Shown in pieces: positions 25,998 to 43,930 of a stretch of 64,000 nt of DNA. Numbering within the stretch: the stretch's first letter is position 1; every line of letters starts with the position of its first letter. The stretch covers positions 62,001 to 126,000 of the forward strand of contig JAFSBY010000002.1 of assembly GCA_017437045.1 (NCBI GenBank), read 5' to 3'. The notes under the pieces are model-generated. The model did no database searches, had not been told where the DNA came from, and saw only the letters and a program-made list of their open reading frames with translations. The position numbers were made by a program, and so were the translations under genes. The DNA comes from Alistipes sp. GTDB taxonomy: Bacteria; Bacteroidota; Bacteroidia; Bacteroidales; Rikenellaceae.

Positions 25998-26018
25998 TGT
26001 TTCGTGTCGTTTTGCGGT

Positions 26019-26162
26019 TTACTCATCTTGTTCCCAGTTGTTGCCACTGTCTTTCCAGTCTTCGGGATTGCCACTCGAAAGGGCAAAACCCTCCTCGACC
26101 CGGCATGCTACCCAGTCGATCATCGGAGCCTCGTAAGGCACCTTTTCATAGCGTTTGTTCAT
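26019..26162 (-). CDS. 47-residue peptide of the fimbrillin type operon
   Basis: Starts MNKRYEKVPYEAPMIDWVAC and ends in a W/G/D/N-rich tail (NPEDWKDSGNNWEQDE). Short proteins with P-x-[IV]-x-W/V then E-x-G-F-A-x-S and a Trp/Asp tail often accompany Bacteroidales fimbrillin/surface lipoprotein genes. No signal peptide. It lies between two paralogous lipoprotein genes with gaps of 21 and 31 bases. Function unknown. Confidence 0.65.
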   Translation of the reverse strand: MNKRYEKVPYEAPMIDWVACRVEEGFALSSGNPEDWKDSGNNWEQDE

Positions 26163-26193
26163 TGTTTAATGGATATTTATAGGTTTAATAGTC

Positions 26194-28158
26194 TTATTCT
26201 CGTTCGCAACGGATCGAACCGCCTCGTGCCGAGTGTCCGTTGTTGCGACGTGAGCCATGGAAAATACCACCCGCCGGATCTAACTCCATGACCCATACGT
26301 TGTTTGACTTGGGACGCAGCATGTTGGACCAATAGTAGCCCACGGCACCCGTGTAACCTATTGAGCCACCCTCGGCCGAGGTCCCCGACGAGGCGTGCGT
26401 CGCCTTGTTTTGGTAGCGGAAACCGGCAGCAGGGTAGTAGCTGCGTACGGGACCACCCGCAGGACCCCAATAGCCGAAGCAGTAGCGCATGCGACTCTCA
26501 TTGACCTCCTCGGTCATCACATCCCAAGAGGAGGTGATATCGACACCGAACGAATACTCGGTGCGCGGTACACGGTACCCCGGCGGACAAGGATCATAGA
26601 TCGCCTTTTTTCCACCTGCACCCCACAAGGTTTCGTAGTCTGTATAGGCCGAGTTCCACCAGCTTTGTCCGTTGGTCGTAATCGTAGCCGTCACGAAGGT
26701 CATCGGGTGTTTGGTGACATAGTCGATCGCTGAAGCCTTGGTCGTACCTACCATCTCGTTGGTCGTTGTCGTGAAGGCATAGTCGCCATTGACGATGTGC
26801 GGGTAGGTGATTCCCGAGAAGGCGGTGGCCTCTTGGAAACGGGTCGAAGAGCCGGTGTTGCGCTGCCCGAGGAAAGGATCCTTACGGCCCCACTGGTAGT
26901 ACAGACCCAGACTGTTCACATCGAACGGTGTGGTAGAGGTGGCTCCGAGGTTACGATCCATCAATACATATTGCGCAGCAGCACCCTCGTGAGCGTTGAT
27001 TGTCGGGTCATCCGTAAGCCAGATATGCCAGCTCCAGACAATCTCCCCGGCCTCGTTGAAGGCGGCAATCAGGGCATTGCCACGACCCTCACCGGCATCG
27101 AAGGTGATACCGCCCTTGCCATACTTGACGTTCGAGATCAGCCCCTCTTCGGTCATCCAGAGCCAATCGGCGCGTACGATACCCTTCGGTTCGTCCGAAC
27201 TGTTGCCCATCGTCGGGCGGAACTTGTATTTGTCGGCATGGGTTACGATGTAGCAGTTGGCCGTGCCGTTTTCGCCCAGGTCGTAGCGGAATTCGTTAAA
27301 TTCGGCATCACCCGAGGCGATCAGCTGTGCCAGCGGAATCGAGACCTCGCTGACTTCGCCGGCCGTAAGTACCGAGGAGTAGTTTAGCGAGAGATCAATC
27401 GTGCTCTTATCCTCACACTGAATCGAGAGGGTCAGCGTGCTCTGGTTCAACTCACCGGGTTGCGCTACGATGTAGAAGGAGCGTACCTGATCGAGCGTGG
27501 GGCGATCCTCGAGCGTGAGGGTCACGGCACGTCCGGCGGCCGGAATCTCGATACGCTCCTCTTCGAGGTTATAGACTAAGTTACCCACGATCGGGTCGCT
27601 GCTTTGGAGCGTGAGTTGTGTGGCGCGTTTCGAGACAGCATCCGTACCCGCAGCGTCGAGCTGGATGCGGATAATGGCACACGGCGTCGAGAATTGCAAC
27701 GTGGTATTTCCTGTACTCAAATCGACCTGATCGGCCCGAGCCGTCAAGAAACCATAACGATTGAGCTGACAGAGAGCCCCTTGCTGGCTTTGGTGGGCAG
27801 GAATTTGTACGGCCAAATAGGTGGGATCAAAACCTCGGTTGGCTTGGTAGGTATAGCAGCCGCGCAAGGAGTGAAGCACCTCACCTTCGGCAGCCGATAC
27901 CTTACCGTGAAATTGGCCCGATTCGGGATTTCCACTCAACGTAAAGGGCACGTTGTTATCGGCGAAATGGGTAGTGCGACTCCACAATCCAAACTGATCG
28001 CCCTCGCTCCAGACGGCTGTGCAGCCCTCCGGACAGGCGATGGTAGCCTGGATGGTGATCGGCTTCTCGAGTGCTATCGGAGCACTCTCATCCTCGTTGC
28101 AGGCGATGAGCATCAGCGATGCACATCCTGCGATCCATAGCGATTTCAACACTTGCAT
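26194..28158 (-). CDS. Surface lipoprotein: fimbrillin-like N-terminus and FISUMP-like C-terminus
   Basis: 654 residues. Lipobox LIAC near residue 20 after MQVLKSLWIAGCASLM. N-terminal half (about 30-290) has fimbrillin-like features (WSEGDQFGLW, TAGEVSEVSIPL). The C-terminal half from ANCYIV repeats the motif order of its paralogue at 24030 (SWHIWLTDDP, MDRNLGAT, LYYQWGRKDPF, YDPCPPGYRVP, YYPAAGFR, GGSIRC). The two probably arose by duplication. It starts five bases after the glycoside hydrolase-like gene. Confidence 0.75.
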   Translation of the reverse strand: MQVLKSLWIAGCASLMLIACNEDESAPIALEKPITIQATIACPEGCTAVWSEGDQFGLWSRTTHFADNNVPFTLSGNPESGQFHGKVSAAEGEVLHSLRGCYTYQANRGFDPTYLAVQIPAHQSQQGALCQLNRYGFLTARADQVDLSTGNTTLQFSTPCAIIRIQLDAAGTDAVSKRATQLTLQSSDPIVGNLVYNLEEERIEIPAAGRAVTLTLEDRPTLDQVRSFYIVAQPGELNQSTLTLSIQCEDKSTIDLSLNYSSVLTAGEVSEVSIPLAQLIASGDAEFNEFRYDLGENGTANCYIVTHADKYKFRPTMGNSSDEPKGIVRADWLWMTEEGLISNVKYGKGGITFDAGEGRGNALIAAFNEAGEIVWSWHIWLTDDPTINAHEGAAAQYVLMDRNLGATSTTPFDVNSLGLYYQWGRKDPFLGQRNTGSSTRFQEATAFSGITYPHIVNGDYAFTTTTNEMVGTTKASAIDYVTKHPMTFVTATITTNGQSWWNSAYTDYETLWGAGGKKAIYDPCPPGYRVPRTEYSFGVDITSSWDVMTEEVNESRMRYCFGYWGPAGGPVRSYYPAAGFRYQNKATHASSGTSAEGGSIGYTGAVGYYWSNMLRPKSNNVWVMELDPAGGIFHGSRRNNGHSARGGSIRCERE

Positions 28159-31220: not shown

Positions 31221-32828
31221 CTATTTCCAATTGGGGTTTTGAACCACCGCCCCTTTGCTTTGTGCAATATCGTTGCTTGGAATGGGGTAGAGGTAGTCCT
31301 TGGCGGGATCAAAGAAACGCGTGTCGGCCTCCTCGAGGATGATGATGCCCTCCTCGTTGAGTCGCTCCTCCATGTTGTCGGCTGACGTGCTTCCATACTC
31401 GCCGGCAATGAACTTACCGCCCAACAAGGCAACGGGCAACAGCCGCTCGGCCTCCTTCCAGCGAATCAAGTCGTCGTAACGTTGTCCCTCCAGGGCCAAC
31501 TCGACAGCTCGCTCACGGCGCAACTCGGTGCGCATGTCAAGCCCATGTGTCGAGACAAAGTCGTTGGTCAGATGGGGCATGCCCACGCGATCGCGCAGCA
31601 GGTTGATCGTGCTGTTGAGCTCCTCGTCGCTGATCGAACCCGTCAGCTCGAACTGTGCTTCGGCATAGATGAGCAGCACCTCGGCATAACGCAGTAGGGA
31701 GTAGTCGAGCGTCGAGGGCTGGTCGCTCTCTTTGTCGTTGCGTACCCATTTGCGTGCACGGAATCCGTCGATCGTGGGGACATAGGCACCCAGCTGATAG
31801 TTCTGCACGCCACGCATCAAGACGGTTTGCGTCAGGCGCGGGTCGCGTCCGATGAGATAGTCGTTGAAACTGCGTTCCAACTCCGGCTCATCGACATACG
31901 GTTCACCGGTATCTTGCAGGTAAAGATTCAGAAAGTTGCGCGTAACGGCATAATTGACAGCATACTGATAGGGCATGTTGTGCGTGGCGATCTGCGTGTC
32001 GGGATAACCATAGAGCTTCACCCACAGATGCTCCGACGCACCCTCTCCGGCATAATCGAACAGGGCCTTGTAGGGCTCGGCACCCTGTTTGAACAGCGAG
32101 TGTTCACCGAGTTCGATGACTGCCTGGGCGGCATCAACAGCCAGCGTAAGATGGGCCGTGCCGTCATTTTCTCCGTGGAATTTGGCGCGGGTACCCTCGT
32201 AGAGGGCGGCACGAGCCTTCAGTCCCAACGCGGCTGTGCGGGTGATACGTCCATACTGGGCCGGCGTGAGTTGTGAGGGCAGCGGCAACTGGCTCGCAGC
32301 GTGGTCCAAATCGGCATAGATCTGCGTCATCACCTCTTCGCGCGAAGCACGCGGTCCGTAGAGAATCGGGTCGTTGATGTCTTGAGGCGTCTGGGTCAAA
32401 ATGGGTACGCCGCCATATTTGGTCACCAGCTGGTAGTAGGCCGCAGCACGGAAAAAGTGTGCCTCGGCTACGTAGCGGTCGATCTGATTGGCCGTGGAGC
32501 CCGTCTCGGGGGCATGTTCGATGATGCGGTTGGCCGCGAAGATCATTTGATAGGGGGCTGTCCAATCGGAGCTCGTGGCGGGAACTTTGCGCGTGCCGGC
32601 ACTGATGTCGTTGGGGTAGTTGCGACGGCGCAGATCGTCACCACGCATGTCGCCCCAATAGTGTCCCTGGCGTGTATAGAGGTAGTTGGCCGCATACTCA
32701 AACTCGGACTCCGAGGTGGGATTCCAGAAATGTTGCTCGGACATCTCCGTCTCGGGGAAGCGATCCAGATCACAGCTTGTGCCTGCAAGCACAGCCATGG
32801 ATGCGAGAAGTATAGAAATTCGTTTCAT
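31221..32828 (-). CDS. SusD/RagB-family nutrient-binding lipoprotein
   Basis: 535 residues. Lipobox GTSC near 19. Family features: DLDRFPETEMSEQHFW near the N-terminus, RAAAYYQLVTKYGGVPI in the TPR core, LLIYAEAQFE, and ERAVELALEGQRYDDLIRWKEA close to the C-terminus. It caps the SusC channel on the outer membrane surface and binds ligand. It lies 14 bases after the SusC gene. Confidence 0.93.
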   Translation of the reverse strand: MKRISILLASMAVLAGTSCDLDRFPETEMSEQHFWNPTSESEFEYAANYLYTRQGHYWGDMRGDDLRRRNYPNDISAGTRKVPATSSDWTAPYQMIFAANRIIEHAPETGSTANQIDRYVAEAHFFRAAAYYQLVTKYGGVPILTQTPQDINDPILYGPRASREEVMTQIYADLDHAASQLPLPSQLTPAQYGRITRTAALGLKARAALYEGTRAKFHGENDGTAHLTLAVDAAQAVIELGEHSLFKQGAEPYKALFDYAGEGASEHLWVKLYGYPDTQIATHNMPYQYAVNYAVTRNFLNLYLQDTGEPYVDEPELERSFNDYLIGRDPRLTQTVLMRGVQNYQLGAYVPTIDGFRARKWVRNDKESDQPSTLDYSLLRYAEVLLIYAEAQFELTGSISDEELNSTINLLRDRVGMPHLTNDFVSTHGLDMRTELRRERAVELALEGQRYDDLIRWKEAERLLPVALLGGKFIAGEYGSTSADNMEERLNEEGIIILEEADTRFFDPAKDYLYPIPSNDIAQSKGAVVQNPNWK

Positions 32829-32842
32829 AATCGAAAGAGGTA

Positions 32843-35800
32843 TTAGAAGGATAAGTTAAGCCCCACGGTGATCGAGCGAGCATAGGCATACCAACTATTG
32901 ACCGAGGTCTGTGCCGGTGCCTCGGGGTCGAAGACATCCCATGTGCGGGTCGTCTCCCAAAGATTCTCACCCGAGAGATAGACGTAGCACGAACGAATCC
33001 ACTTGTTCTTCTTGAGGGGAACCGTGTAACCGATCGTGACATTCTTCAGACGCAGGTAGGCGGCATCCTGAATCCACCGATCAGCCGGCTTGTAGTTGTA
33101 CGAACCACCCTTATAGACCGGACGCGGCATGAATGCGTCGGTGTTCTCGGGAGTCCAATAGTCTCGGTGGATGTTGATGGCCTGGTAGAGCGATCCCTGT
33201 ACGGGGTTCAGCGTTCCTTCGTCGAGCAGGAAATAACGCTCGCCAACGCCCTGCCAGAGCATCGAGAAGTGCAAACCCTTCCACTCAAAACCCAGATCGA
33301 AGCCGAAGGTGTAGCGCGGGTCGGTCGTGCCGAGCATGACCAAATCACCCGGATTCTCGGGGGTATATTCACCGCCGTTGATGTAGGGATCGTCGTCCTG
33401 GTTGATGAAACGCAGGTCACCGGCCGAGGTCAAGGCACCACCCGGCTGGCAGAGAGCCTCCTCCAACGCCGGAGTCTCTTGGTACAACCCGTCGGTGCGA
33501 TAGCCCCAGATGGTGTTGAGCGGATAGCCCTCCAGAAGGGGCACGATACCCTCCTTGATGACGTTGCTGCCCTCGTATTTTACCAACTCGTTTTGGCTAT
33601 CGGAGAGGTTGAAGCCAGCCCAGTAATTGAAGTTCTTGCCAATGGAATCCTTCCAGCGCACCTCGAACTCCCAACCCCAGGTTTTCAGCTCACCCACGTT
33701 GGCCGAAGGTAGGCCGACACCGATCAGCGAGGGAACACCCATTGCGGCCGAAAGCATGTTCTTGTTGCGTTTCCAATAATACTCACCCGTGAATTGGAGG
33801 CGATTCTTCAGGAAGGCCATGTCGAGGCCGATGTTCGTCAGGTCGATGATCTCCCAGGTCTTCGAGGGTGAGCCGAGGGTCGAGATGTAGTTCGTCGAGG
33901 CGGTTGTGCCACCGAAGAGGGTCTCACCCGTCTGGATCAGGGTGATGTAGTCGTAGTAGCCCAATGCGTTGGCATTACCGAGTTGTCCCCACGAGGCGCG
34001 TACCTTCAGCAGGTCAATGAAATCCAACCGGTCACGGAAGAAATTCTCCTTCGAGAGTACCCAACCGACCGAAACCGAGGGGAACAACTCCCAACGATTC
34101 TCGGGAGCCAAACGCGACGAACCGTCGTAGCGCATATTGACCTCGAGCAGGTATTTTTCGCGGAAATCATAGTTTAGACGACCGAAGAAGGACATGACGG
34201 CCGAGGTGTTTACCTTGTCGGAATTGGTGGCCGAGGCGGCATGACCAAAGTTGAGCGAGTAGAAATCCTCGGGCATATACTCCTTGGAGGCGGTGATGCG
34301 GTCGAAACGGTAGTTCTCCCACTCCGTACCGGCCATCAGGTGGAAATTGTGGCTGCGGCCGAGCTTAAATTCGTAATTGGCTACGGCGCGCAGGTTGTCC
34401 GTGAAGGTGTTGTAACGCGACTTGGTGACATCGCTCGGCTGGGTTTGCGAGTAACGATATTCGTAGTCGCCGCGACCATACCAGATGATGCGGTTACGGT
34501 TGCGGTTGTTCTCGTTCGAGCGGAATTTGCGCGAGGCGGTCAGATCGATGCGCAGTCCCTTGATCAGGTTGCGAAGGCGCAAATTGACCTGTCCGGTGAA
34601 GTCATTGTTGATGTTCTCCGAACTGCCGGCATTCTTCATCAGGTCGATCGGGTTCGATCCGTCCTGCCCGGCGTAGATGTTGGGATTTGGAATCGGATCT
34701 TCATCGTGCGGGTAGAAAATCGACATGCGGGTACGCGTACGATAGATCTGTGCCAGCAGATTCTGTGCGCTGAATGCGTTGGCATTGATCTCCGAACGAT
34801 CGCCCGTGAGCTTGAACGAGAGATCGACATGGTTACTCAAGCGCGAGAAGAGGTTCGCACGGAAATTGAAACGGTTGTTGTCGTCGGGACCGTATTTGAA
34901 GAATCCGTCGCGTTCATAGTAACCGACCGAGACCATGTAGTTCAGCTTGTTCGTGCCACCGCGCATCGAAAGCGAGTGACGTTGCATGTGGCTCCAATCG
35001 TTCAAGCTGGCCTTGATCCAATCCGTGTTATCCAAATAGCTCAAGGCGGTCTGCGACTGCAGCATCGAGTTGATGTTGGGATTTTTGAGCCACTCGAGCG
35101 TCTGTACATTGACATCCAGCCCGTTGGCGCGTTGGGTGATCTCATACTCCTCCCACGAATTGATACGGCTCGGACGACGACCCTGCGAGGTGAAACTGTA
35201 CGAACCGGCATACTCCACCTTGACACGCTCGGCTTCGCCCTGCTTGGTGGTGACCAAGATGACACCGGCCGCCGCTTTCGATCCGTAGATCGAGGCCGAG
35301 GCGGCATCTTTCAGTACCGAGATCGACTCGATGTCGTTGGGGTTGAGCATCTCCAGGTCGCCCTCGATGCCATCGATGAGCACCAATGTCTCGATCTGAT
35401 TGACCGACGAATAACCACGAATCTGGAGCGAGAAACCCTCCTCACCGGGTTGGCCGCTAGCCTGGGTGACGACCACACCGGGCAACTCACCCTGCAGCGA
35501 GGCCAGCACGCTGGGTGATGCTTTTGCTGCGATCTCCTCACCGTCGATTTGCGAGACGGCACCGGTCAGATTGACCTTCTTTTGGATACCGTAGCCCACA
35601 ACAACTACCTCATCGACATGGGTAGCCTCCTCGGTGAGTGTGATGTGCATCGCACCTTGACGAGCCGCGATGCGCTGGGTTTCGTAACCCAGGAAGGAGA
35701 CCTCTAATTCTTGTCCCGACTTTGCTTGGAGGATGAAACGTCCGCGCGTGTCGGTTGTGGTTCCTTGATTACTCTCTTTGATGATGACCGTGGCACCCAC

Positions 35801-35917
35801 AAGCGCCGAACCCGACGGGTCGGTCACCAAACCTTCGACCTTGAAGGCCTGGGCATGGCTCGGAAGCACCATCACCAGGGCGATAAGGGTCAGCAGGATG
35901 AGTTTTAGATGTTTCAT
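32843..35917 (-). CDS. SusC/RagA-family TonB-dependent transporter
   Basis: 1024 residues. Signal peptide (MKHLKLILLTLIALVMVLPSHAQ), carboxypeptidase-regulatory-like domain about 27-100 (GLVTDPSGSALVGATV), TonB box region DEVVVVGYG, plug domain (GVVVTQASGQPGEEGFSLQI, LVLIDGI, SISVLKDAASASIYGSKAAA) and a long outer-membrane barrel ending in LNLSF with terminal F. Imports an oligosaccharide or nucleoside-type ligand delivered by SusD. Part of the operon from ribokinase. Confidence 0.95.
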   Translation of the reverse strand: MKHLKLILLTLIALVMVLPSHAQAFKVEGLVTDPSGSALVGATVIIKESNQGTTTDTRGRFILQAKSGQELEVSFLGYETQRIAARQGAMHITLTEEATHVDEVVVVGYGIQKKVNLTGAVSQIDGEEIAAKASPSVLASLQGELPGVVVTQASGQPGEEGFSLQIRGYSSVNQIETLVLIDGIEGDLEMLNPNDIESISVLKDAASASIYGSKAAAGVILVTTKQGEAERVKVEYAGSYSFTSQGRRPSRINSWEEYEITQRANGLDVNVQTLEWLKNPNINSMLQSQTALSYLDNTDWIKASLNDWSHMQRHSLSMRGGTNKLNYMVSVGYYERDGFFKYGPDDNNRFNFRANLFSRLSNHVDLSFKLTGDRSEINANAFSAQNLLAQIYRTRTRMSIFYPHDEDPIPNPNIYAGQDGSNPIDLMKNAGSSENINNDFTGQVNLRLRNLIKGLRIDLTASRKFRSNENNRNRNRIIWYGRGDYEYRYSQTQPSDVTKSRYNTFTDNLRAVANYEFKLGRSHNFHLMAGTEWENYRFDRITASKEYMPEDFYSLNFGHAASATNSDKVNTSAVMSFFGRLNYDFREKYLLEVNMRYDGSSRLAPENRWELFPSVSVGWVLSKENFFRDRLDFIDLLKVRASWGQLGNANALGYYDYITLIQTGETLFGGTTASTNYISTLGSPSKTWEIIDLTNIGLDMAFLKNRLQFTGEYYWKRNKNMLSAAMGVPSLIGVGLPSANVGELKTWGWEFEVRWKDSIGKNFNYWAGFNLSDSQNELVKYEGSNVIKEGIVPLLEGYPLNTIWGYRTDGLYQETPALEEALCQPGGALTSAGDLRFINQDDDPYINGGEYTPENPGDLVMLGTTDPRYTFGFDLGFEWKGLHFSMLWQGVGERYFLLDEGTLNPVQGSLYQAINIHRDYWTPENTDAFMPRPVYKGGSYNYKPADRWIQDAAYLRLKNVTIGYTVPLKKNKWIRSCYVYLSGENLWETTRTWDVFDPEAPAQTSVNSWYAYARSITVGLNLSF

Positions 35918-35968
35918 AAGTAGGTTTTTTGCAGTTTATGCGGTTTGGGGGAATGGGTCGATCGTGCG

Positions 35969-37000
35969 CTATTGCACCGGATAGGGTGCCGGTCGGCGCG
36001 TGATCAGTTCGACACAGCGAGCGAGTGCCGCAGAGGCCTGTTCGGGCGTAACCGAAAGGTAGCGATGAGGTCCGTCGGCTGCGGGTGTGAAGTGGGTGTA
36101 CGCATCGTCCGTGACGTGGATCGTGCCCGGCTCGCTGACGGTGAAGTAGCCGCCGTCCGGCTCTACGGCATAGAGCACAGCCGACGGATCCCACATCGGA
36201 CGGTCGTAGGGCATCGGCTTATAGACTTTGTAAGCCTCGGCCAGCGGATGCTTCTCCACATAGCCGAAATCGCCCAGAATCGACTCTACGGGGTAGAGGA
36301 TCGCGCTACCCACCTCGAAGGGTGAGGTGACGATCGGGGTAGGCCACTGCTCAAAGATAGCTTTTGCGGCTGGTTGGTCGATGCGGATGTTGTATTCGGC
36401 CATCGTGTCGTCCTCCGGATAGAAGTCGCCACCCATCATCACGAGCTGCTTGACCTTCTGCTTGATGAGGACTACACCGGCCATCGGCGAGCATTGATCG
36501 GCTTCCGAGGCCAACAGACGTTGCAGGTTGGTCGAAAAACCGACGGCAATGATCGTGACCGAGTGGTCGGGGGCTTCCGAAAGAAGCTCGCGCAGGCGAT
36601 CCACACTCTCGGGCAGGGTCGTGCAATCGGTGATAGTCCGTGCATAATGCGGATCGGCTACGGTCTGGCTTGTAAAACTGTTTACGCGATCACAATCCGC
36701 TCCGTCGCTGATCCGACCCAGCGGCAGATTGGGATAGCCGTAGAAGGTGTTCATCAGATCGAGATACTCCACGCTCTGCGGCTCCTCCTTGTTGGAGGTG
36801 ATGCCAAGCAGTTCGATACGCCCTTCATCGGCATATTTGTAGAGCATGTCGAGGGCCAACGCATCGTCGATGTCATTGCCCATGTCGGTATCGAAAATCA
36901 CCTTCATTGGGGCTTGTTCAGCGACCGGAGCCTCCGAACAAGCCGTCGAAAGGGTTGCTCCGGCCAGCAGCATCCATGCGGTGATAAAGTAGGTCTTCAT
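35969..37000 (-). CDS. Nucleoside hydrolase, lipoprotein form
   Basis: 343 residues. Lipobox STAC near 21. KVIFDTDMGNDIDDALAL (from about 33) is the calcium- and ribose-binding motif of IunH-family hydrolases; VMMGGDF and EYNIRIDQPAA carry further active-site residues. It splits nucleosides into ribose and base. A lipidated, exported form next to SusC/D fits periplasmic or surface release of ribose, as in rus loci. Confidence 0.85.
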   Translation of the reverse strand: MKTYFITAWMLLAGATLSTACSEAPVAEQAPMKVIFDTDMGNDIDDALALDMLYKYADEGRIELLGITSNKEEPQSVEYLDLMNTFYGYPNLPLGRISDGADCDRVNSFTSQTVADPHYARTITDCTTLPESVDRLRELLSEAPDHSVTIIAVGFSTNLQRLLASEADQCSPMAGVVLIKQKVKQLVMMGGDFYPEDDTMAEYNIRIDQPAAKAIFEQWPTPIVTSPFEVGSAILYPVESILGDFGYVEKHPLAEAYKVYKPMPYDRPMWDPSAVLYAVEPDGGYFTVSEPGTIHVTDDAYTHFTPAADGPHRYLSVTPEQASAALARCVELITRRPAPYPVQ

Positions 37001-37048
37001 AGTTGGATTTTCGTTAGAGAGTTGGATGTTCTTCAGATATCGGTGGGT

Positions 37049-38053
37049 TTAATTCGCACCGGAGAGAATGATAAGAGCCAAGCCGGCAATGAAGAGGCAG
37101 AACATGGCGGCCAGCAGCCCCATCGTCGAGCCCTTTGCCCCCTTAAACTCGCGCCAGATGAAGACGCCCCAGATGGCAGCGATCATCGGTGCACCCTGTC
37201 CTAGCGCATAGGAGATAGCGGCTCCGGCCTTACCGGCAGCGATATAACTAAAGGCCGTACCCAATGCCCAGATGGCACCTCCGAGTACACCGACCATGTG
37301 GGTCGAGAGTGAACCTTTGAAGTAGGCCTTGTAGCTCACCGGCTCGCCCTCGAAGGGATGGCGCATCACCCACGTGTTGAAGATGAAGTTGCTCAGCAAC
37401 ACGCCGATCGAGAAGACGAAGAGTGCCGAGTAGGGGGTCAGCATGCCCGGGGTCGGATCGGCAAAGTTGTTCAAGTCCATGGCTGCCGCTACGAAACGGT
37501 AGAAGAATGCCATGATAATGCCGGCTAACGCTGCTAAGATGATGCCCTTGCGGCTGCTCTTGCGCTCACCTTGCGATTGCTTGGCCGAGGCCACGCCATT
37601 GAGGATGATGGCCAACACGATCAGTGCAACGCCGATAAACAGAATCACCGGATCGCCTTTGGGTGCCCCTATATAATTGATAATAACACCCAGCACCAGT
37701 GCCAAACCGACACCCAACGGGAAGGCTACGGCCAGACCGGCCAGCGATACGGAGGCCGAGAGCAAGATGTTCGAGGCGTTGAAGACCACGCCACCGATCA
37801 CGACGCTCAACAGATTTTGCGAATCGGCCTGCATCAGGTCGGGCAGGAAACTGCGACCCTCGCTACCGAAACTGCCGAGCGTGAAGCCCGAGAGGAGGCT
37901 GAAGAGAACCATGCCGATCACATAGTCCCAATAATAGAGTTCGTAACGCCACGATTTAGAGGCCATCTTTTGGGTGTTGCCCCACGAGCCCCAAGCGAGC
38001 ATCGTGACAAAGCAGAAGAGCACTGCTAACGGATAGTTGTCTACAATAAACAT
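37049..38053 (-). CDS. Sugar transporter of the GRP/RhaT-type (DMT superfamily)
   Basis: 334 residues, about ten membrane helices. MLAWGSWGNTQKMA in helix 1 and FPLGVGLALVLGVIINYIG are typical of glucose/ribose porter and ureide-permease-like families. Placed between ribokinase and nucleoside hydrolase, it probably carries ribose across the inner membrane (rusT-like). Gap to rbsK is 42 bases. Confidence 0.75.
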   Translation of the reverse strand: MFIVDNYPLAVLFCFVTMLAWGSWGNTQKMASKSWRYELYYWDYVIGMVLFSLLSGFTLGSFGSEGRSFLPDLMQADSQNLLSVVIGGVVFNASNILLSASVSLAGLAVAFPLGVGLALVLGVIINYIGAPKGDPVILFIGVALIVLAIILNGVASAKQSQGERKSSRKGIILAALAGIIMAFFYRFVAAAMDLNNFADPTPGMLTPYSALFVFSIGVLLSNFIFNTWVMRHPFEGEPVSYKAYFKGSLSTHMVGVLGGAIWALGTAFSYIAAGKAGAAISYALGQGAPMIAAIWGVFIWREFKGAKGSTMGLLAAMFCLFIAGLALIILSGAN

Positions 38054-38095
38054 ATAGGTATCGTTTTTTTAGGTATTTAATTTCTTGTTGGTTCT

Positions 38096-39007
38096 TTAGC
38101 GAGCCTCTACTTCGCTTCGGTGGGGGATGGAGGCTTGAGCTCCCAGACGGGTGACGGCAATCGCCGAGGCGCGTGAGGCAAACGACACGGCTTCGGCCAA
38201 CGTGCGGCCTTCGACTAATGCTACGCAGAGCGCACCGTTGAACGTATCGCCTGCTGCCGTTGTGTCAATCGCCTCGACACGCTGGGCCGGAATGTGCTCA
38301 TAGCGATTCCCCTCCTTGATCAGTGCTCCCTCCGATCCGAGGGTGATCACCACCCGCTCAACACCCTTTTCGGTGAGGACATCGGCTGCTCGACGAGCAC
38401 TTTCAGGATCGTGGATGCGAATGCCCGTCAGACTTTCAGCTTCGGTGCGGTTGGGGGTGATCAGATGCAACATCGGATAGAGATTCTCCGGTATTGGGGC
38501 CGCAGGTGCCGGATTGAGCACCACTTTTACGCCGTGGCGGGCTGCCAGGGCCGTTGCGTGCATGATCGTTTGGATCGGGATCTCCATCTGCATCAAGACG
38601 AGCGATGCGTCGGCAATCAACGCCTCGGCCGCGTCGATCTCCTCTGCGGTCAGGAGGGCGTTGGCGCCGGGAGCTACCACGATACAGTTTTCGGCGGCCC
38701 GATCGACGGTGATCAGTGCCACGCCCGAGGGGGCTTGATCAGTCGTGATGGCGTAGGAGGTGTCGATCCCCTCGGCCTTGTAGGAGGCAATGGATGCCTG
38801 TCCAAAGGGGTCGTTGCCGACTTTGCAGAGAAACGATGTACGCCCGCCCATGCGCGCGACAGCTACTGCTTGGTTGGCACCTTTCCCGCCTTGCAGCATA
38901 TAAAAGTCGCCGCCCAGCACGGTCTCACCGGGGCGGGGCAACTGCGAGGTTTTGATCGTCATGTCGGTGTTGCTGCTACCGATGACGACAATGTGTGCGT
39001 TGTTCAT
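38096..39007 (-). CDS. rbsK: Ribokinase
   Basis: 303 residues, PfkB family. GSSNTDMTIKTSQLPRPGET at the N-terminus, GGKGANQAVAVARMGG for sugar binding, and DTTAAGDTFNGAL with the catalytic aspartate. It phosphorylates ribose to ribose 5-phosphate. First gene of the large minus-strand operon; its promoter overlaps the LacI-type palindrome at 39038. Confidence 0.9.
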   Translation of the reverse strand: MNNAHIVVIGSSNTDMTIKTSQLPRPGETVLGGDFYMLQGGKGANQAVAVARMGGRTSFLCKVGNDPFGQASIASYKAEGIDTSYAITTDQAPSGVALITVDRAAENCIVVAPGANALLTAEEIDAAEALIADASLVLMQMEIPIQTIMHATALAARHGVKVVLNPAPAAPIPENLYPMLHLITPNRTEAESLTGIRIHDPESARRAADVLTEKGVERVVITLGSEGALIKEGNRYEHIPAQRVEAIDTTAAGDTFNGALCVALVEGRTLAEAVSFASRASAIAVTRLGAQASIPHRSEVEAR

Positions 39008-39037
39008 GGCCTAATATCTGTTTGTTTCGTTCTTTTA

Positions 39038-39063
39038 ATCTTTGCGCAATCGTTTGTGCAAAG
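39038..39063. promoter_or_regulatory. Palindromic operator for the LacI-type regulator
   Basis: A 26-base palindrome with 11 of 13 pairs matching, centred on CG between 39050 and 39051: TCTTTGCGCAATC and GTTTGTGCAAAGA. The core AATCGTTT fits LacI-family operators (AAxCGxTT). It overlaps the -7 box of rbsK at 39058-39065 and lies 58 bases from the -7 box of the regulator, so binding would block rbsK. Confidence 0.65.
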
Positions 39064-39065
39064 AT
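39058..39065 (-). promoter_or_regulatory. -7 element for rbsK and the utilisation operon
   Basis: TATCTTTG on the minus strand, 50 bases before the rbsK start codon, within the operator. Confidence 0.6.
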
Positions 39066-39120
39066 AGATATATTTCAATATACTCCAAATGTTTTTTCCG
39101 TTTTTTTACAAAAAAAAGTG

Positions 39121-39128
39121 TATATTTG
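39121..39128 (+). promoter_or_regulatory. -7 element for the LacI-family gene
   Basis: TATATTTG 24 bases before ATG 39153. Its place rules out the upstream in-frame ATG at 39042. Confidence 0.55.
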
Positions 39129-39152
39129 CAAAAAAGTAGCATCAACAGCTTT

Positions 39153-40172
39153 ATGGAAGAACGGATGACCTTAGTGGCCTTAGCCGAGCGCACAGGGCTT
39201 TCGGTGACCACTATCTCACGCGTATTGAGCGGACAAGCCGAAAAGTATCGTATCAGCCCCAAAACAGTGGAGTATATCAAGCAGGAGGCTGATCGATGCA
39301 ATTATCGTCCCAATGTGATGGCGCAAAGTTTGCGCACGAAGCGAACGCGCACGATCGGATTGGTTGTGCCGGCTATCAGTAACCCCTTCTTTGCCAATAT
39401 TGCAAGTGCTATTGTGCAGAAAGCCAGAGAATTGGGCTATACAGTGATCCTCTCCGATGCTATGGAGGATGCCGAGCAGGAGGAGGAGGGCGTTCGTTCA
39501 CTGCTGCTGCGGCATGTGGATGGTATCATCGTCAGCACATCGGCCGAGCAACCTGCCTTTCTCGAGCAGGTCAATGAGAGTGCCGTGCCGGTGGTGCTCA
39601 TCGACCGCTATTTTGCTGAAACGACGTTGCCCTATGTCGTGACCGATAACTATAGTGGTGCGTTGGAGGCGGTCAGCCATCTGATCAATCGAGGCCATCA
39701 GCGGGTGGCCTGCATCTGCGGTGTTCGCCACTCGGCTATTGTGCAGGAGCGTATGCGAGGGTATGTGGATGCTATGCAACGAGCAGGCCTTGAGCGGTTT
39801 GTGCACTGTGTGGGCGATGAGTTTTCGGTGCAAAATGGCTATATCGAGGCCAAATTGCTACTCAATAGTAACCCCCTGCCCACGGCCCTCTTTACGATGA
39901 ATAACACGATTCTGCTCGGAGCCATCAAAGCGATCAAAGAGTCGGGGTTGCGGATCCCGGAAGATATTTCGGTGGTCTCGTTCGATGACAATCCGTTTTT
40001 GGACTATATCAGCCCTGCGATTACTCGTATTGTGCAGCCGCAGAATGAGTTAGGGTCGATTGCGCTGCGTATCTTGATTCGCAGCATCGAGGAAAACGAA
40101 CGTTCTGATGCCCGCATCAAACTCTCACCGATACTCAAATTGTGTGATTCGGTGGCTCTCTATGATAAGTAG
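39153..40172 (+). CDS. LacI/GalR-family transcriptional regulator
   Basis: 339 residues. N-terminal helix-turn-helix (MTLVALAERTGLSVTTISRVLS) and hinge region NYRPNVMAQSLRTKRTRTIG, then a periplasmic-binding-protein-like sensor domain (GLVVPAISNPFFANIA, VVSFDDNPFLDYISPAITRI). Divergent from rbsK, so it probably controls the utilisation operon and responds to ribose or a related sugar. ATG 39153 is chosen from the promoter position and the HTH start. Confidence 0.9.
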   Translation: MEERMTLVALAERTGLSVTTISRVLSGQAEKYRISPKTVEYIKQEADRCNYRPNVMAQSLRTKRTRTIGLVVPAISNPFFANIASAIVQKARELGYTVILSDAMEDAEQEEEGVRSLLLRHVDGIIVSTSAEQPAFLEQVNESAVPVVLIDRYFAETTLPYVVTDNYSGALEAVSHLINRGHQRVACICGVRHSAIVQERMRGYVDAMQRAGLERFVHCVGDEFSVQNGYIEAKLLLNSNPLPTALFTMNNTILLGAIKAIKESGLRIPEDISVVSFDDNPFLDYISPAITRIVQPQNELGSIALRILIRSIEENERSDARIKLSPILKLCDSVALYDK

Positions 40173-40344: not shown

Positions 40345-40349
40345 CACAT

Positions 40350-40381
40350 GAAAAAACCTATGCCCAAGCATAGGTTTTTTT
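40350..40381. terminator. Bidirectional terminator
   Basis: AAAAAACCTATGC and GCATAGGTTTTTT around CCAA. It ends tRNA-Pro and, on the other strand, the HAD/steroid-reductase operon whose last gene stops at 40408. Confidence 0.85.
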
Positions 40382-40407
40382 GTCATTTAGCTTGGATGTA
40401 TCCGCTC

Positions 40408-41028
40408 TTACTCGGCAAACAGATGGGCAAATGATCCGTTGGTGGGCGGACAATAGACCTGGAATCCTGCCGCGTGACCGGCATCGGCGTTCCGTGCACC
40501 ATCGTCGATGAAGAGGGTCTCTTCGGGGTTGATGCCCGTGCGGCGAATCACCTCTTGGAAGATCTCCGGAGCGGGTTTCAGCAGCTTCATTTCGTAGGAG
40601 AGGAAAATCCCGTCGAAGCAATCTTCGATCTTGCGGCCGGCGGCTGCAAAGTGCCGGCGCACGGCATCAAAGGCTACACGATTCGTGTTCGAGAGGATAT
40701 AGAGCTTCAACCCGCGAGCGCGCAACTGCTCGATTAGTTCGATTTTGCGGCTGTCTACGCGAGCCAGGAACTCCCGATAGACCCACTCGATCTGCTCGTT
40801 CGTCACATCGGGACGATTGTCGATGCGGCGCATCTCATCACAAGCCTCCTCCCAGGTGATTTCGCCGCGCTCCATGCGTTCGTTTACCTCGGCCGGATAG
40901 CAGGGATCCATCAGCGCAGCCATACGTGGCATGCCGATTTGGCGGAAGCATTCGCGCACGCGTTCCATCTCCAGATCGACAATCACGCCACCCAGATCGA
41001 AAATAACTTGTTTGATATTTTGTAACAT
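40408..41028 (-). CDS. HAD-family phosphatase (YihX-like)
   Basis: 206 residues. Motif I VIFDLGGVIVD (about 8-18), motif II LSNTNR, motif III KPAPEIF and motif IV FIDDGARNADAG are all present. This subgroup removes phosphate from sugar phosphates or flavin precursors; substrate unknown. It lies 10 bases after the SDR gene, as the last gene of the steroid-reductase operon. Confidence 0.85.
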   Translation of the reverse strand: MLQNIKQVIFDLGGVIVDLEMERVRECFRQIGMPRMAALMDPCYPAEVNERMERGEITWEEACDEMRRIDNRPDVTNEQIEWVYREFLARVDSRKIELIEQLRARGLKLYILSNTNRVAFDAVRRHFAAAGRKIEDCFDGIFLSYEMKLLKPAPEIFQEVIRRTGINPEETLFIDDGARNADAGHAAGFQVYCPPTNGSFAHLFAE

Positions 41029-41038
41029 CTTGTAGGTT

Positions 41039-41848
41039 TTATTTTTGGTATTTCATGGTTCGACGTCGGATGGGCCGGATCATCCACATGGGAAGGCTCA
41101 CCAGCAGCGGAATCCAAATGCGATTCCACCAATCGGGCACCGAGCAGCGTACCCCTCGCCACATGGCACTCAATCCGCGGCGTGCGCAACGGTCGGCCGT
41201 AATCAACCCTCCGATGCGCGTCCCCAGCCGTTGCAATTTCGGAGGCAGGCCATACAGATCGGTCGCTACACCTGCCGGGCAGATGGCCGAAAGACGGATG
41301 CCGTGCTCTCGAATCTCCTTGGCAAAGGCGACGGTGAAGGCCTTCAGATAGGCCTTCGAGGCGCTATAGACGGCCAATCCCGGGAAGGGCATCCAGAGCG
41401 AATAGGAGGACATGTTGAGCATGTAGCCCTTGATGCCGCGTTCGATCATGCGGGCCGCATAGCGACGGCAGAGTTTCGTGGTGGTCATATCGTGCAACAG
41501 CAACATGCGCTCGATCTTCTGTTCGTCGGTCTTGAGCACATCGCAGAAGGAGAAGATCCCGGCATTGTTGATCAGAACGTCGATCTCGATCCCGGCAGCT
41601 GCTACCGCCTCGTACAGCTCGTCTGCAGCCTCCATGCGTGCCAAATCCATCGTGAGTGGCCGCACCTTGACGGCCTGCTCTTGCTCGATTTGTCGGGCTA
41701 CCTCCAGCAAAGGTTCCGGATGATTGCCCACGATGACCAAATTGTAGCCCAGCGCAGCCAGACGTGTGGCATAGCAACGCCCGATGCCCGATCCGGCACC
41801 GGTGATCAGTGCCCAGGCACTCCCTCTCTCTACAGCTCCGCGTGGCAT
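41039..41848 (-). CDS. SDR, candidate 3-beta-hydroxysteroid dehydrogenase
   Basis: 269 residues from ATG 41848; the longer frame would overlap the OYE gene. Cofactor loop TGAGSGIG (about 16-23), NNAG, catalytic S and YSASK. The C-terminus ends with a hydrophobic helix (WIPLLVSLPMWMI) and basic tail, suggesting membrane contact. Two bases separate it from the OYE-family gene. In gut Bacteroidetes a gene set 5AR-5BR-3-beta-HSDH turns 3-oxo-4-ene bile acids into isoallolithocholic acid; this SDR holds the HSDH place. Steroid specificity is inferred from context. Confidence 0.7.
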   Translation of the reverse strand: MPRGAVERGSAWALITGAGSGIGRCYATRLAALGYNLVIVGNHPEPLLEVARQIEQEQAVKVRPLTMDLARMEAADELYEAVAAAGIEIDVLINNAGIFSFCDVLKTDEQKIERMLLLHDMTTTKLCRRYAARMIERGIKGYMLNMSSYSLWMPFPGLAVYSASKAYLKAFTVAFAKEIREHGIRLSAICPAGVATDLYGLPPKLQRLGTRIGGLITADRCARRGLSAMWRGVRCSVPDWWNRIWIPLLVSLPMWMIRPIRRRTMKYQK

Positions 41849-41850
41849 GG

Positions 41851-43077
41851 TTATTTGATCTTTTTGAGTTCGCGCCACAATTTGTCGGGAATCGGCTCCT
41901 GACAGTTGTGGCAACATTGCATATCGCGTGAATACATGCGGGCAATGCAGTAGTCGCGGTGGTCGCAACCCGATCGGGTCGAGAGGTCGCCCTCACGCAT
42001 TTTATTGACGAAATTTGGGTCGTTGATCAACGCACGCGCCATCTGCACCAACTCGAAACCTTCGCCCAATACCCGCTCGATGCCCTCGCGCGAGACCAGG
42101 CCACCCACATAGATCAGCGGCAGTTTCAACGCTTCGCGGAATCGCTTGGCCTTCTCCAGGAAGAAACACTCCTCGAAATCGTATTGCTTGATCATCCAAT
42201 TACCGAACAGATTGACCACGATCTTTTGCGGCCAGGACGACCAGGGCATGTAGTAGCTCATCGTCTTGGTCGGGATGCGACCGCGCATGACCGCCATCGG
42301 AGCCTTCGAGACAAAACCCGAGGAGAGGACAATGCCGTGCACGCCCAATCGCTCGATCTCGCGGGCAATTTCGATGCTTTCGTCGAGCTCGATGCCCCCC
42401 TTGAAGCCATCCTCCATGTTGTGTTTGACGACGACCGCCATCCCCAAACGTTCGGCCTCGGTCAGGACCTCCTCCAAACACATCTGCATGAAGCGCATGC
42501 GGTTTTGGAGCGAGCCGCCAAATTCGTCCCGACGACGATTCGTGTAGGGTGACAGGAATTGCGAAATGAGGTATCCGTGGCCGGCATGTACCTCTACCGA
42601 ATCGAATCCCGCTTCGTGGGCCGTGACGACCGCCTTACCGAAATCTTTGGCAAAGGCCACACACTCCGCAGGGCGCATGCGACGGTGGAAGGTGGGGGAG
42701 TAGAGGTTGAATCCGTTCGAGGCCGAGACGGGGAACGATCCGGCCGTAGACCAATGGGTCATGTTGCCACAATGGCCAATTTGAATGCCGGCGGCAGCCC
42801 CTTCGGCGTGGATCGCATCGGTCATATCGCGCAATGCGGGGACGATCTCGTCGCGCAACCACAACTGCTTATTGAACGAGATACCGCTGCGGTTTACCGA
42901 GGCGTAGGCTACGGTGGTCATGCCGATGCCGCCACGTGCTACGCTGACATGGTAATCTTTGAGTTGCTCGGTCGGTCCGAAGTCCTTGCCCATCGACTCA
43001 AAAGCGGCCGAACGGATCGTGCGGTTGCGTAGGGTCAAAGGACCGAGTTGAAAGGGGGTAAAGAGTTTTGATTCCAT
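41851..43077 (-). CDS. Old-yellow-enzyme-family reductase, candidate 5-beta-reductase (5BR)
   Basis: 408 residues. FMN barrel motifs: LTLRNRTIRSAAFES, IQIGHCG, and EVHAGHGYLISQFLSPYTNRR followed by DEFGGSLQNRMRF. The C-terminal flavodoxin-like half of BaiCD/BaiH is absent, but a cysteine-rich tail (CDHRDYC, then CCHNC) remains and may bind a metal or Fe-S cluster. The family reduces enone double bonds; in bile-acid clusters it acts on 3-oxo-4-ene steroids. Fifteen bases behind the 5-alpha-reductase gene. Confidence 0.8.
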   Translation of the reverse strand: MESKLFTPFQLGPLTLRNRTIRSAAFESMGKDFGPTEQLKDYHVSVARGGIGMTTVAYASVNRSGISFNKQLWLRDEIVPALRDMTDAIHAEGAAAGIQIGHCGNMTHWSTAGSFPVSASNGFNLYSPTFHRRMRPAECVAFAKDFGKAVVTAHEAGFDSVEVHAGHGYLISQFLSPYTNRRRDEFGGSLQNRMRFMQMCLEEVLTEAERLGMAVVVKHNMEDGFKGGIELDESIEIAREIERLGVHGIVLSSGFVSKAPMAVMRGRIPTKTMSYYMPWSSWPQKIVVNLFGNWMIKQYDFEECFFLEKAKRFREALKLPLIYVGGLVSREGIERVLGEGFELVQMARALINDPNFVNKMREGDLSTRSGCDHRDYCIARMYSRDMQCCHNCQEPIPDKLWRELKKIK

Positions 43078-43092
43078 CGTTGGAATGGTTGT

Positions 43093-43854
43093 TTAGTAGA
43101 TGAAAGGGATGATCCGCTTGCGCCCCAATCGGGTGAACTCCTCACCGAACTCCTGCGCATAGCGGCGACGCAACGAGGCGGCACGCGGGGCGAGGTTGGC
43201 AAAGGTCCACAGGACAAAGACCACACCGGCCCACGACCACGAGGCGATGGCAAAGCCGGTCCACTCGGTCAGCTCGCCAAAATAATTGGCCGAGGTGACG
43301 TAGCGGAACATGCCGCCGTGGGGGATGTAGTGGCGCGTATCACCCGGTTTGCGCAGCCGACGGATGATCGCATCGGAGTGGTGGTTGATCCACATACCGG
43401 TAAAGAAGATTGCCGTACCGACATAGAGATAGGGCTGGCAGAACCAATCGGCGTAGTAGCCCTCGGGGGCGAGGTAGAAGATCCATCCTCCCTGCATCAG
43501 TGCGTTGAGCGTATTGAAGAGCATACCCATCAGCACAATGCCAAGCGGCATCTTCGAGTTGCCACGCAGGCGTAACGGGAAGATGAACGAACGGTTGAAA
43601 TAGTGGGTCTGGAAGAGCAAAAAGAGGATGAGCGGTATCGGCTCCCAGGCACGATCCGACAGCGCCCACAAAATGCACATAGCCACAAAGACGGGGCTCT
43701 CCATCAGCACCCAGCCCACTTTGTTGGCGATGGGACGGCCGAATTTGGGGTTGAAGAGGTAGCCGTAGCCCGCCTCGACAAATTGCAACCCAATGAATAC
43801 CAATACGGCCAGGATTGCCATGACGATCAGAAAAATGTGGTAGATCTCCAACAT
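43093..43854 (-). CDS. Steroid 5-alpha-reductase family membrane enzyme (SRD5A-like, 5AR)
   Basis: 253 residues, six to seven membrane helices; human SRD5A1 has 259. E52 in LMESPVF and H84-Y85 in THYFNRSFIFPLR match the catalytic glutamate and tyrosine of human SRD5A2. The C-terminal NADPH-binding part is very well kept: SDAIIRRLRKPG, NYFGELTEWTGFA, WTFANLAPRA and RKRIIPF. It should reduce the 4,5 double bond of 3-oxo-steroids or bile acids. ATG 43854 is used because the promoter covers the earlier in-frame start at 43908. First gene of the operon. Confidence 0.88.
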   Translation of the reverse strand: MLEIYHIFLIVMAILAVLVFIGLQFVEAGYGYLFNPKFGRPIANKVGWVLMESPVFVAMCILWALSDRAWEPIPLILFLLFQTHYFNRSFIFPLRLRGNSKMPLGIVLMGMLFNTLNALMQGGWIFYLAPEGYYADWFCQPYLYVGTAIFFTGMWINHHSDAIIRRLRKPGDTRHYIPHGGMFRYVTSANYFGELTEWTGFAIASWSWAGVVFVLWTFANLAPRAASLRRRYAQEFGEEFTRLGRKRIIPFIY

Positions 43855-43878: not shown

Positions 43879-43909
43879 TAAAGATAGCAAAAAAAGAGCA
43901 AAGGGCAAA
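43879..43909 (-). promoter_or_regulatory. Promoter of the steroid-reductase operon
   Basis: On the minus strand TTTG at 43909-43906, 19 bases, TATCTTTA at 43886-43879; only the last base of the -7 box departs from consensus. Confidence 0.6.
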
Positions 43910-43930
43910 ATCCCTTTGCTCGGTGTCGGA

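Follow-up and report, generated by a model that had tools for sequence, protein, structure and literature searches.

Does a tightly packed set of reductase genes in an Alistipes genome encode the route to isoallolithocholic acid (isoalloLCA)? The genes lie on the minus strand (43854-40408) of a 64,000-nucleotide stretch of Alistipes sp. DNA (assembly GCA_017437045.1, contig JAFSBY010000002.1, positions 62,001 to 126,000), hereafter called the window, and run from a steroid 5-alpha-reductase (5AR) through an old yellow enzyme (OYE)-family reductase and a short-chain dehydrogenase/reductase (SDR) to a HAD phosphatase. As reviews have it, Sato 2021 reportedly described an isoalloLCA cluster consisting of 5AR, a 5-beta-reductase (5BR), and a 3-beta-hydroxysteroid dehydrogenase (3-beta-HSDH) in Parabacteroides merdae and Odoribacteraceae, and an original prediction made from the letters of the window had equated the first three genes with that set. 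A passage in PMC10382948 describes the P. merdae cluster as a 5AR, a predicted 3-beta-HSDH, and an NADH:flavin oxidoreductase. We conclude that the operon quite probably encodes a steroid A-ring redox set with isoallo products such as isoalloLCA; the pathway reading is likely, and its substrate and stereochemistry are what we infer. The four genes are as follows.

43093..43854, minus strand: gene 1, SRD5A-type steroid 5-alpha-reductase (5AR), 253 amino acids (Steroid_dh, PF02544, 8.1e-43)
41851..43077, minus strand: gene 2, OYE-family FMN reductase, 408 amino acids, barrel plus C-terminal Cys site (Oxidored_FMN, PF00724, 4.1e-51)
41039..41848, minus strand: gene 3, classical SDR, 269 amino acids (adh_short, PF00106, 2.7e-42)
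40408..41028, minus strand: gene 4, HAD-IA phosphatase (Hydrolase, PF00702, 7e-25)

All four Pfam matches are far over the cut-off, and successive genes are separated by 15, 2, and 10 bases. The reading frames of the 5AR, OYE, and SDR genes are all intact, and frames, families, and coordinates agree with the tight packing of this trio that had been predicted, as they do with a HAD phosphatase in fourth place.

Homology and residues strongly support 5AR chemistry for the predicted product of the first gene. Its best matches among solved structures are PbSRD5A (7c83; 3.1e-48, 168 bits) and human SRD5A2 (7bw1; 1.6e-37, 132 bits), compared with 31 bits against the enoyl-CoA reductase art-1. For human SRD5A2, a passage in PMC7815742 gives the motif Q56-E57-Y91 ("QEY") and eight NADPH residues. 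The window 5AR retains the catalytic Glu and Tyr (E57 = E52 and Y91 = Y85, SRD5A2 first) and seven of the eight NADPH contacts (N160 = N157, D164 = D161, R171 = R168, N193 = N190, E197 = E194, R227 = R224, and Y235 = Y232). The eighth, H231, is replaced by L228, and H231A is the one variant for which the same passage gives no significant loss of activity (PMC7815742).

A search of the window genome (G000; 2.22 Mb, 92.8% complete) found no PF00724 gene besides the OYE, which has an invariant H-x-x-H pair (H164, H167). Three of its residues, C371, C377, and C388, do not vary in any of the 116 aligned sequences, and a Cys or His stands shortly after them; this C-terminal cluster (C-x5-C-x10-C) is a possible metal or Fe-S site. 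The catalytic residues of the SDR (S148, Y161, and K165) are intact and are likewise invariant in 116 of 116 aligned rows, which include both of the SDR types distinguished below. We propose that the OYE is a 3-oxo-steroid 5-beta-reductase/dehydrogenase and that the SDR is a 3-hydroxysteroid dehydrogenase. The OYE would remove or add the 5-beta hydrogen, interconverting 3-oxo-5-beta and 3-oxo-delta-4 forms; the 5AR would use NADPH to turn the 3-oxo-delta-4 steroid into the flat 3-oxo-5-alpha form; and the SDR would reduce the 3-oxo group to give iso-allo products, for example, isoalloLCA from 3-oxoLCA.

We compared gene order around 5AR relatives of decreasing similarity to the window copy. 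The 80-locus set holds the best 80 of 238 5AR relatives among species genomes (64 to 83% identical to the window 5AR); nearly all are titled Alistipes or Rikenellaceae, with a few others (Millionella, a Prevotellaceae metagenome-assembled genome [MAG], and Bacteroidales MAGs). Of the loci in the 48-locus set (L113 to L160; ∼46 to 65% identity), 45 belong to other families of the order and 3 to a sister genus within the family of the window genome. The distant set consists of 12 fetched homologues with 36 to 41% identity, a kind of copy that 43 genomes had. In the 80-locus set, an OYE gene lies 3′ of the 5AR gene on the same strand at 79 loci (77 within 300 bp) and is followed by the SDR gene at 74, with median gaps of 13 and 2 bases; four contigs stop before the SDR, L079 has no SDR in reach, and L077 lacks the OYE. 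Because gene order is kept across this set, chance clustering is excluded. The 5AR-OYE-SDR order recurs in other Bacteroidales families too, the OYE being downstream of the 5AR at 39 of the 48 loci (36 within 300 bp).

None of the 12 distant loci has an OYE adjoining the 5AR (one contig is too short to tell). At eight of them (L163 to L167, L169, L171, and L172), a gene on the same strand lies directly upstream of the 5AR with a gap of −4 to 44 bases. The one such gene scanned matched two families, NAD-dependent epimerase (113 bits) and 3Beta_HSD (88 bits). Distant 5ARs may pair with a different partner dehydrogenase. Two genomes of the 48-locus set, G001 (L152 and L153) and G120 (L157 and L158), have two 5AR copies each, ∼50% identical to the window's and none beside an OYE.

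A second SDR occurs in at least nine other families. It is 22 to 29% identical to the window SDR and forms its own tree group. Among loci L113 to L140, several families have it after the operon SDR, and in others it takes the place of that SDR (for example, at L130, L131, and L137). In a quick tree of 48 hand-picked rows, the window SDR grouped with the same-position SDR of other Bacteroidales families (SH-aLRT, 99), where the program warned of long branches meeting. We rejected the identity of the window SDR with the second SDR on these separate groups, subject to the same long-branch warning. The second SDR was not seen in the 80-locus set, where no open reading frame (ORF) resembled it more than the operon SDR. 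In the window genome, we found seven other SDR genes, one of which (32% identity, not adjacent) falls on a long branch inside the operon-SDR side; none of the seven is near the second SDR (best, 26% identity and 58 bits).

The 5AR is a regular gene of the genus. It was matched in 161 of 180 genus genomes (3 of these weakly, at about 1e-4) and in 68 of the 70 good ones (≥90% complete and ≤5% contaminated). In a draw from the phylum, only 4 of 296 genomes, including the window's own, had a match at 1e-20. Across the order, 104 of 393 genomes matched: 47 with a gut-type 5AR, 43 with a distant one, and 14 weakly, the last being omitted from both the gut-type and distant lists. An OYE profile at 1e-60 matched 68 of 386 genomes of the order. 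Such an OYE is present in 46 of the 47 gut-type genomes (the G148 copy is two contig-end pieces), and in five of them (G003, G120, G218, G299, and G363) it stands on a different contig from the gut-type 5AR. Among genomes without a 5AR match at an E value of 1e-20 or better, 5 of about 296 have the OYE. Fisher's test for 5AR-OYE co-occurrence gives a P value of 2e-41, which is too strong because the genomes share kinship and the numbers of genomes in the two draws are 7 apart. For 5AR, OYE, and SDR, the correlation between pairwise distances is 0.88 to 0.89 over 98 loci and 0.60 to 0.72 over 72 loci of the 80-locus set.

That nearly all members of the genus have the 5AR (68 of 70 good genomes) would also fit a housekeeping role, with the trio working on an isoprenoid or lipid enone of the bacterium's own rather than on host steroids. 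Distant homologues in other Bacteroidales without an adjoining OYE or this SDR would fit it as well, and the wider 5AR superfamily also includes enoyl-CoA and polyprenol reductases. We consider such a role very unlikely, as the window 5AR matches the steroid branch (SRD5A structures, 168 and 132 bits; art-1, 31 bits) and as the cluster has, in a passage of PMC10382948, published bile acid activity.

Several observations weigh against the steroid A-ring reading. In the 5AR, the Gln of the QEY motif (SRD5A2 Q56) is replaced by M51, and Met occupies this position in all 140 homologues of the three locus sets; outside the order, a text pattern picked up the motif in one of three fetched homologues, where the residue is Met too. 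A passage in PMC7815742 states that human Q56A and Q56L lost activity. Therefore, Met-type 5ARs, if active, do without the Gln. The Gln is probably not strictly defining, because a Bacteroidota 5AR (its own residue there not seen) works by genetics. Read from the alignments, Met for Gln is a real departure from the SRD5A motif. In the locus comparisons, 9 of the 48 loci have a 5AR without an OYE in the stretch fetched; the OYE is also found in 17 of the 43 distant-5AR genomes and is thus not confined to the gut type; and G001, with its two 5ARs, has no such OYE at all, the sole gut-type genome without it. In the other families that have it, the second SDR could be the true 3-beta-HSDH. Finally, co-inheritance is only modestly over that with the control gene MeaB at 15 loci (5AR-OYE, 0.74; 5AR-MeaB, 0.60; and OYE-MeaB, 0.47). 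Common descent therefore accounts for much of the distance correlation.

The other adverse points concern what the OYE and the SDR resemble. The closest solved match of the OYE is YqjM (116 bits), and that of the SDR is an alcohol dehydrogenase (84 bits), both generic; sequence searches found no close relative of either protein among solved structures, and no steroid enzyme was named among the best 60 of 92 solved matches of the OYE or the best 60 of 254 of the SDR. On the BaiCD model NF041087 (an equivalog model of 642 positions), the OYE scores 174.6 bits with a cut-off of 825, and its 408 amino acids leave no room for the C-terminal part of that model. Its best NCBIfam stretches, with mycofactocin OYE-2 and BaiCD, cover barrel residues 4 to 259 at most, far under the cut-offs. 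We rejected an identification of the OYE as BaiCD on this score. Best matches to non-steroid families had been expected to speak against the original prediction, and the generic ones found here are not decisive.

Generic best matches are also what would be seen if only the 5AR were steroid specific, the OYE and SDR being general reductases placed on its transcript by coincidence; both families are promiscuous. Against this, the gene order is kept across families, OYE and 5AR co-occur even where they are unlinked, and in the tree, the operon SDR separates from the second SDR and from all but one of its seven paralogues in the window genome. We give this explanation very little weight. A shared role of the three genes in steroid A-ring chemistry is supported by conserved synteny, by the intact catalytic residues, and by co-occurrence. 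With gene content, they also uphold the original prediction in its outline; the individual roles of the OYE and SDR are what we infer from conserved linkage and the published cluster.

Which steroid the set mainly meets is a further matter. The chemistry could be the same and the main substrate another, namely, host steroid hormones, cholestenone, or dietary 3-oxo-delta-4 steroids, with bile acids as a side activity. PbSRD5A, the closest solved bacterial homologue, responded mainly to progesterone in a passage of PMC7815742. A search for a bile salt hydrolase in the window genome (92.8% complete) came up empty, which also counts among the points against the steroid A-ring reading; the operon would therefore rely on already deconjugated secondary bile acids. 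Nor did a bile acid gene recur beside the operon in the 40 largest neighbor clusters, of which nine representatives were given to Pfam and the rest were judged by their first residues. Eight of the nine matched Pfam (a xylose-isomerase-like barrel, phosphofructokinase, YchF GTPase, glycine transporter, radical SAM, PCMD, YitT, and the epimerase-family gene of the distant loci), and one had no match. On the other side, disruption of the 5AR in P. merdae blocks alloLCA derivatives, as a passage in PMC10382948 reports, so that the group includes at least one bile-acid-active member. We hold another main substrate to be possible but rather unlikely. Bile acids as the main natural substrate would be a point taken from the literature only. 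A PF01758 symporter-family gene lies elsewhere in the window genome, in a family too broad to weigh.

The HAD gene had been left unexplained in the original prediction. In the 80-locus set, it lies 3′ of the trio at 30 loci (27 within 150 bp), early-ending contigs being counted as without it; on the same strand, it was found at none of the 48 loci L113 to L160. We rejected it as a conserved fourth pathway gene on this distribution, and it is probably a lineage-limited passenger of the transcript, not a pathway member. The flanks of the four-gene unit have the following signals.

43879..43886, minus strand: Bacteroidota-like −7 box TATCTTTA, 24 bases 5′ of the 5AR ATG
43896..43921, minus strand: intrinsic-terminator-like stem-loop ending the upstream sirtuin gene, 10-pair stem plus T run
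40348..40383, no strand assigned: terminator-like stem-loop 3′ of the HAD gene, ahead of tRNA-Pro, 16-pair stem between A and T runs

We take TATCTTTA to be a likeness of the Bacteroidota −7 box TAnnTTTG; the window copy ends in A, not G, and so does not match the pattern itself. Within 80 nucleotides upstream of the 5AR start, TAnnTTTG occurs in 66 of the 140 sequences with enough upstream DNA, compared with 6.8 on average and at most 15 in 200 mononucleotide shuffles. A sigma-70 scan found no site in the promoter region ahead of the 5AR; sigma-70 consensus sites are not expected in Bacteroidota. The terminator scan found 6 sites overall versus a shuffle mean of 4.6, so that support for the sirtuin-side terminator lies in its position and quality. 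This stem-loop sets the four-gene unit apart from the upstream sirtuin gene. With the box 5′ of the 5AR and a stem-loop on each side, the four genes likely form one transcription unit, in line with the single promoter that had been predicted.

Adjoining the operon, 31221-40172 holds a LacI regulator, a PfkB-family kinase, a ureide-permease/sugar-transporter-like protein, and a SusC/SusD pair, a gene content suggestive of a ribose or nucleoside utilization locus. Near the SusC/SusD pair, at 24030-28158, are two proteins (655 and 654 amino acids) without a Pfam match at an E value of 0.001.

If the steroid A-ring set is active, nearly every Alistipes could turn bile acids or hormones into flat 5-alpha forms. 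Its reach would include Alistipes genomes titled from ruminants, rabbits, and birds, and the trait would be common and animal-wide, not special to centenarians. More speculatively, the Bacteroidales set may be a distinct A-ring branch, with a Met-Glu-Tyr 5AR and a short OYE bearing a C-terminal Cys metal or Fe-S site, that is a core Alistipes trait and serves chiefly as a sink for electrons or a means of detoxifying host and dietary 3-oxo steroids, isoalloLCA being only one product; we think this combination unlikely as a whole. The Met-for-Gln change, the Cys site of the OYE, and the second SDR found in other families give enzymology specific questions to test.

Among known systems, the sequence family of the 5AR is that of PbSRD5A and human SRD5A2, with which it shares the catalytic Glu/Tyr and seven of the eight listed NADPH contacts and from which it differs by Met for the QEY Gln and Leu for H231. 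The OYE has the FMN barrel and H-x-x-H pair of BaiCD/BaiH and YqjM-type OYEs but a shorter C-terminal part, within its 408 amino acids, and its own C-x5-C-x10-C site. BaiP and BaiJ of Clostridium scindens reduce 3-oxo-delta-4 bile acids to allo forms, and BaiP is predicted to be urocanate-reductase-like and BaiJ flavin dependent, according to a passage in PMC10382948; by description, we take this shared reduction as analogous.

The closest likeness, again by description, is to the Bacteroidota isoalloLCA cluster, which has the same three protein classes in a cluster, comes from the same bacterial order, and has Alistipes among its listed carriers; orthology would follow from conserved synteny within Bacteroidales genomes only. 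As for membership, the window has an SRD5A-like 5AR (by PF02544, solved matches, and residues), a clustered flavin reductase (a PF00724 gene, similar to BaiCD and under the BaiCD cut-off), and, as a candidate for the predicted 3-beta-HSDH, a clustered SDR with intact catalytic residues. Our literature search found nothing combining Alistipes, 5-alpha-reductase, bile acid, and gene cluster, and passages elsewhere do name the genus: the three enzymes are found in Odoribacter and Alistipes (PMC11792504), Alistipes is listed as a "presumed" carrier (PMC10218639), and it is named among isoalloLCA producers after Sato 2021 (PMC10265179). Other passages describe the 5AR gene as widespread among Bacteroidota (PMC10382948) and as present in the Bacteroidetes isolates from chicken other than two Odoribacter and P. 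distasonis (PMC6069880). Many other families add the second SDR, whereas Alistipes often has the HAD gene instead. The operon is thus a further copy of the published cluster type, in a genus already named as a carrier, and what it adds are new details: the Met in QEY, the OYE Cys site, the second SDR elsewhere, and the HAD gene in part of the 80-locus set.

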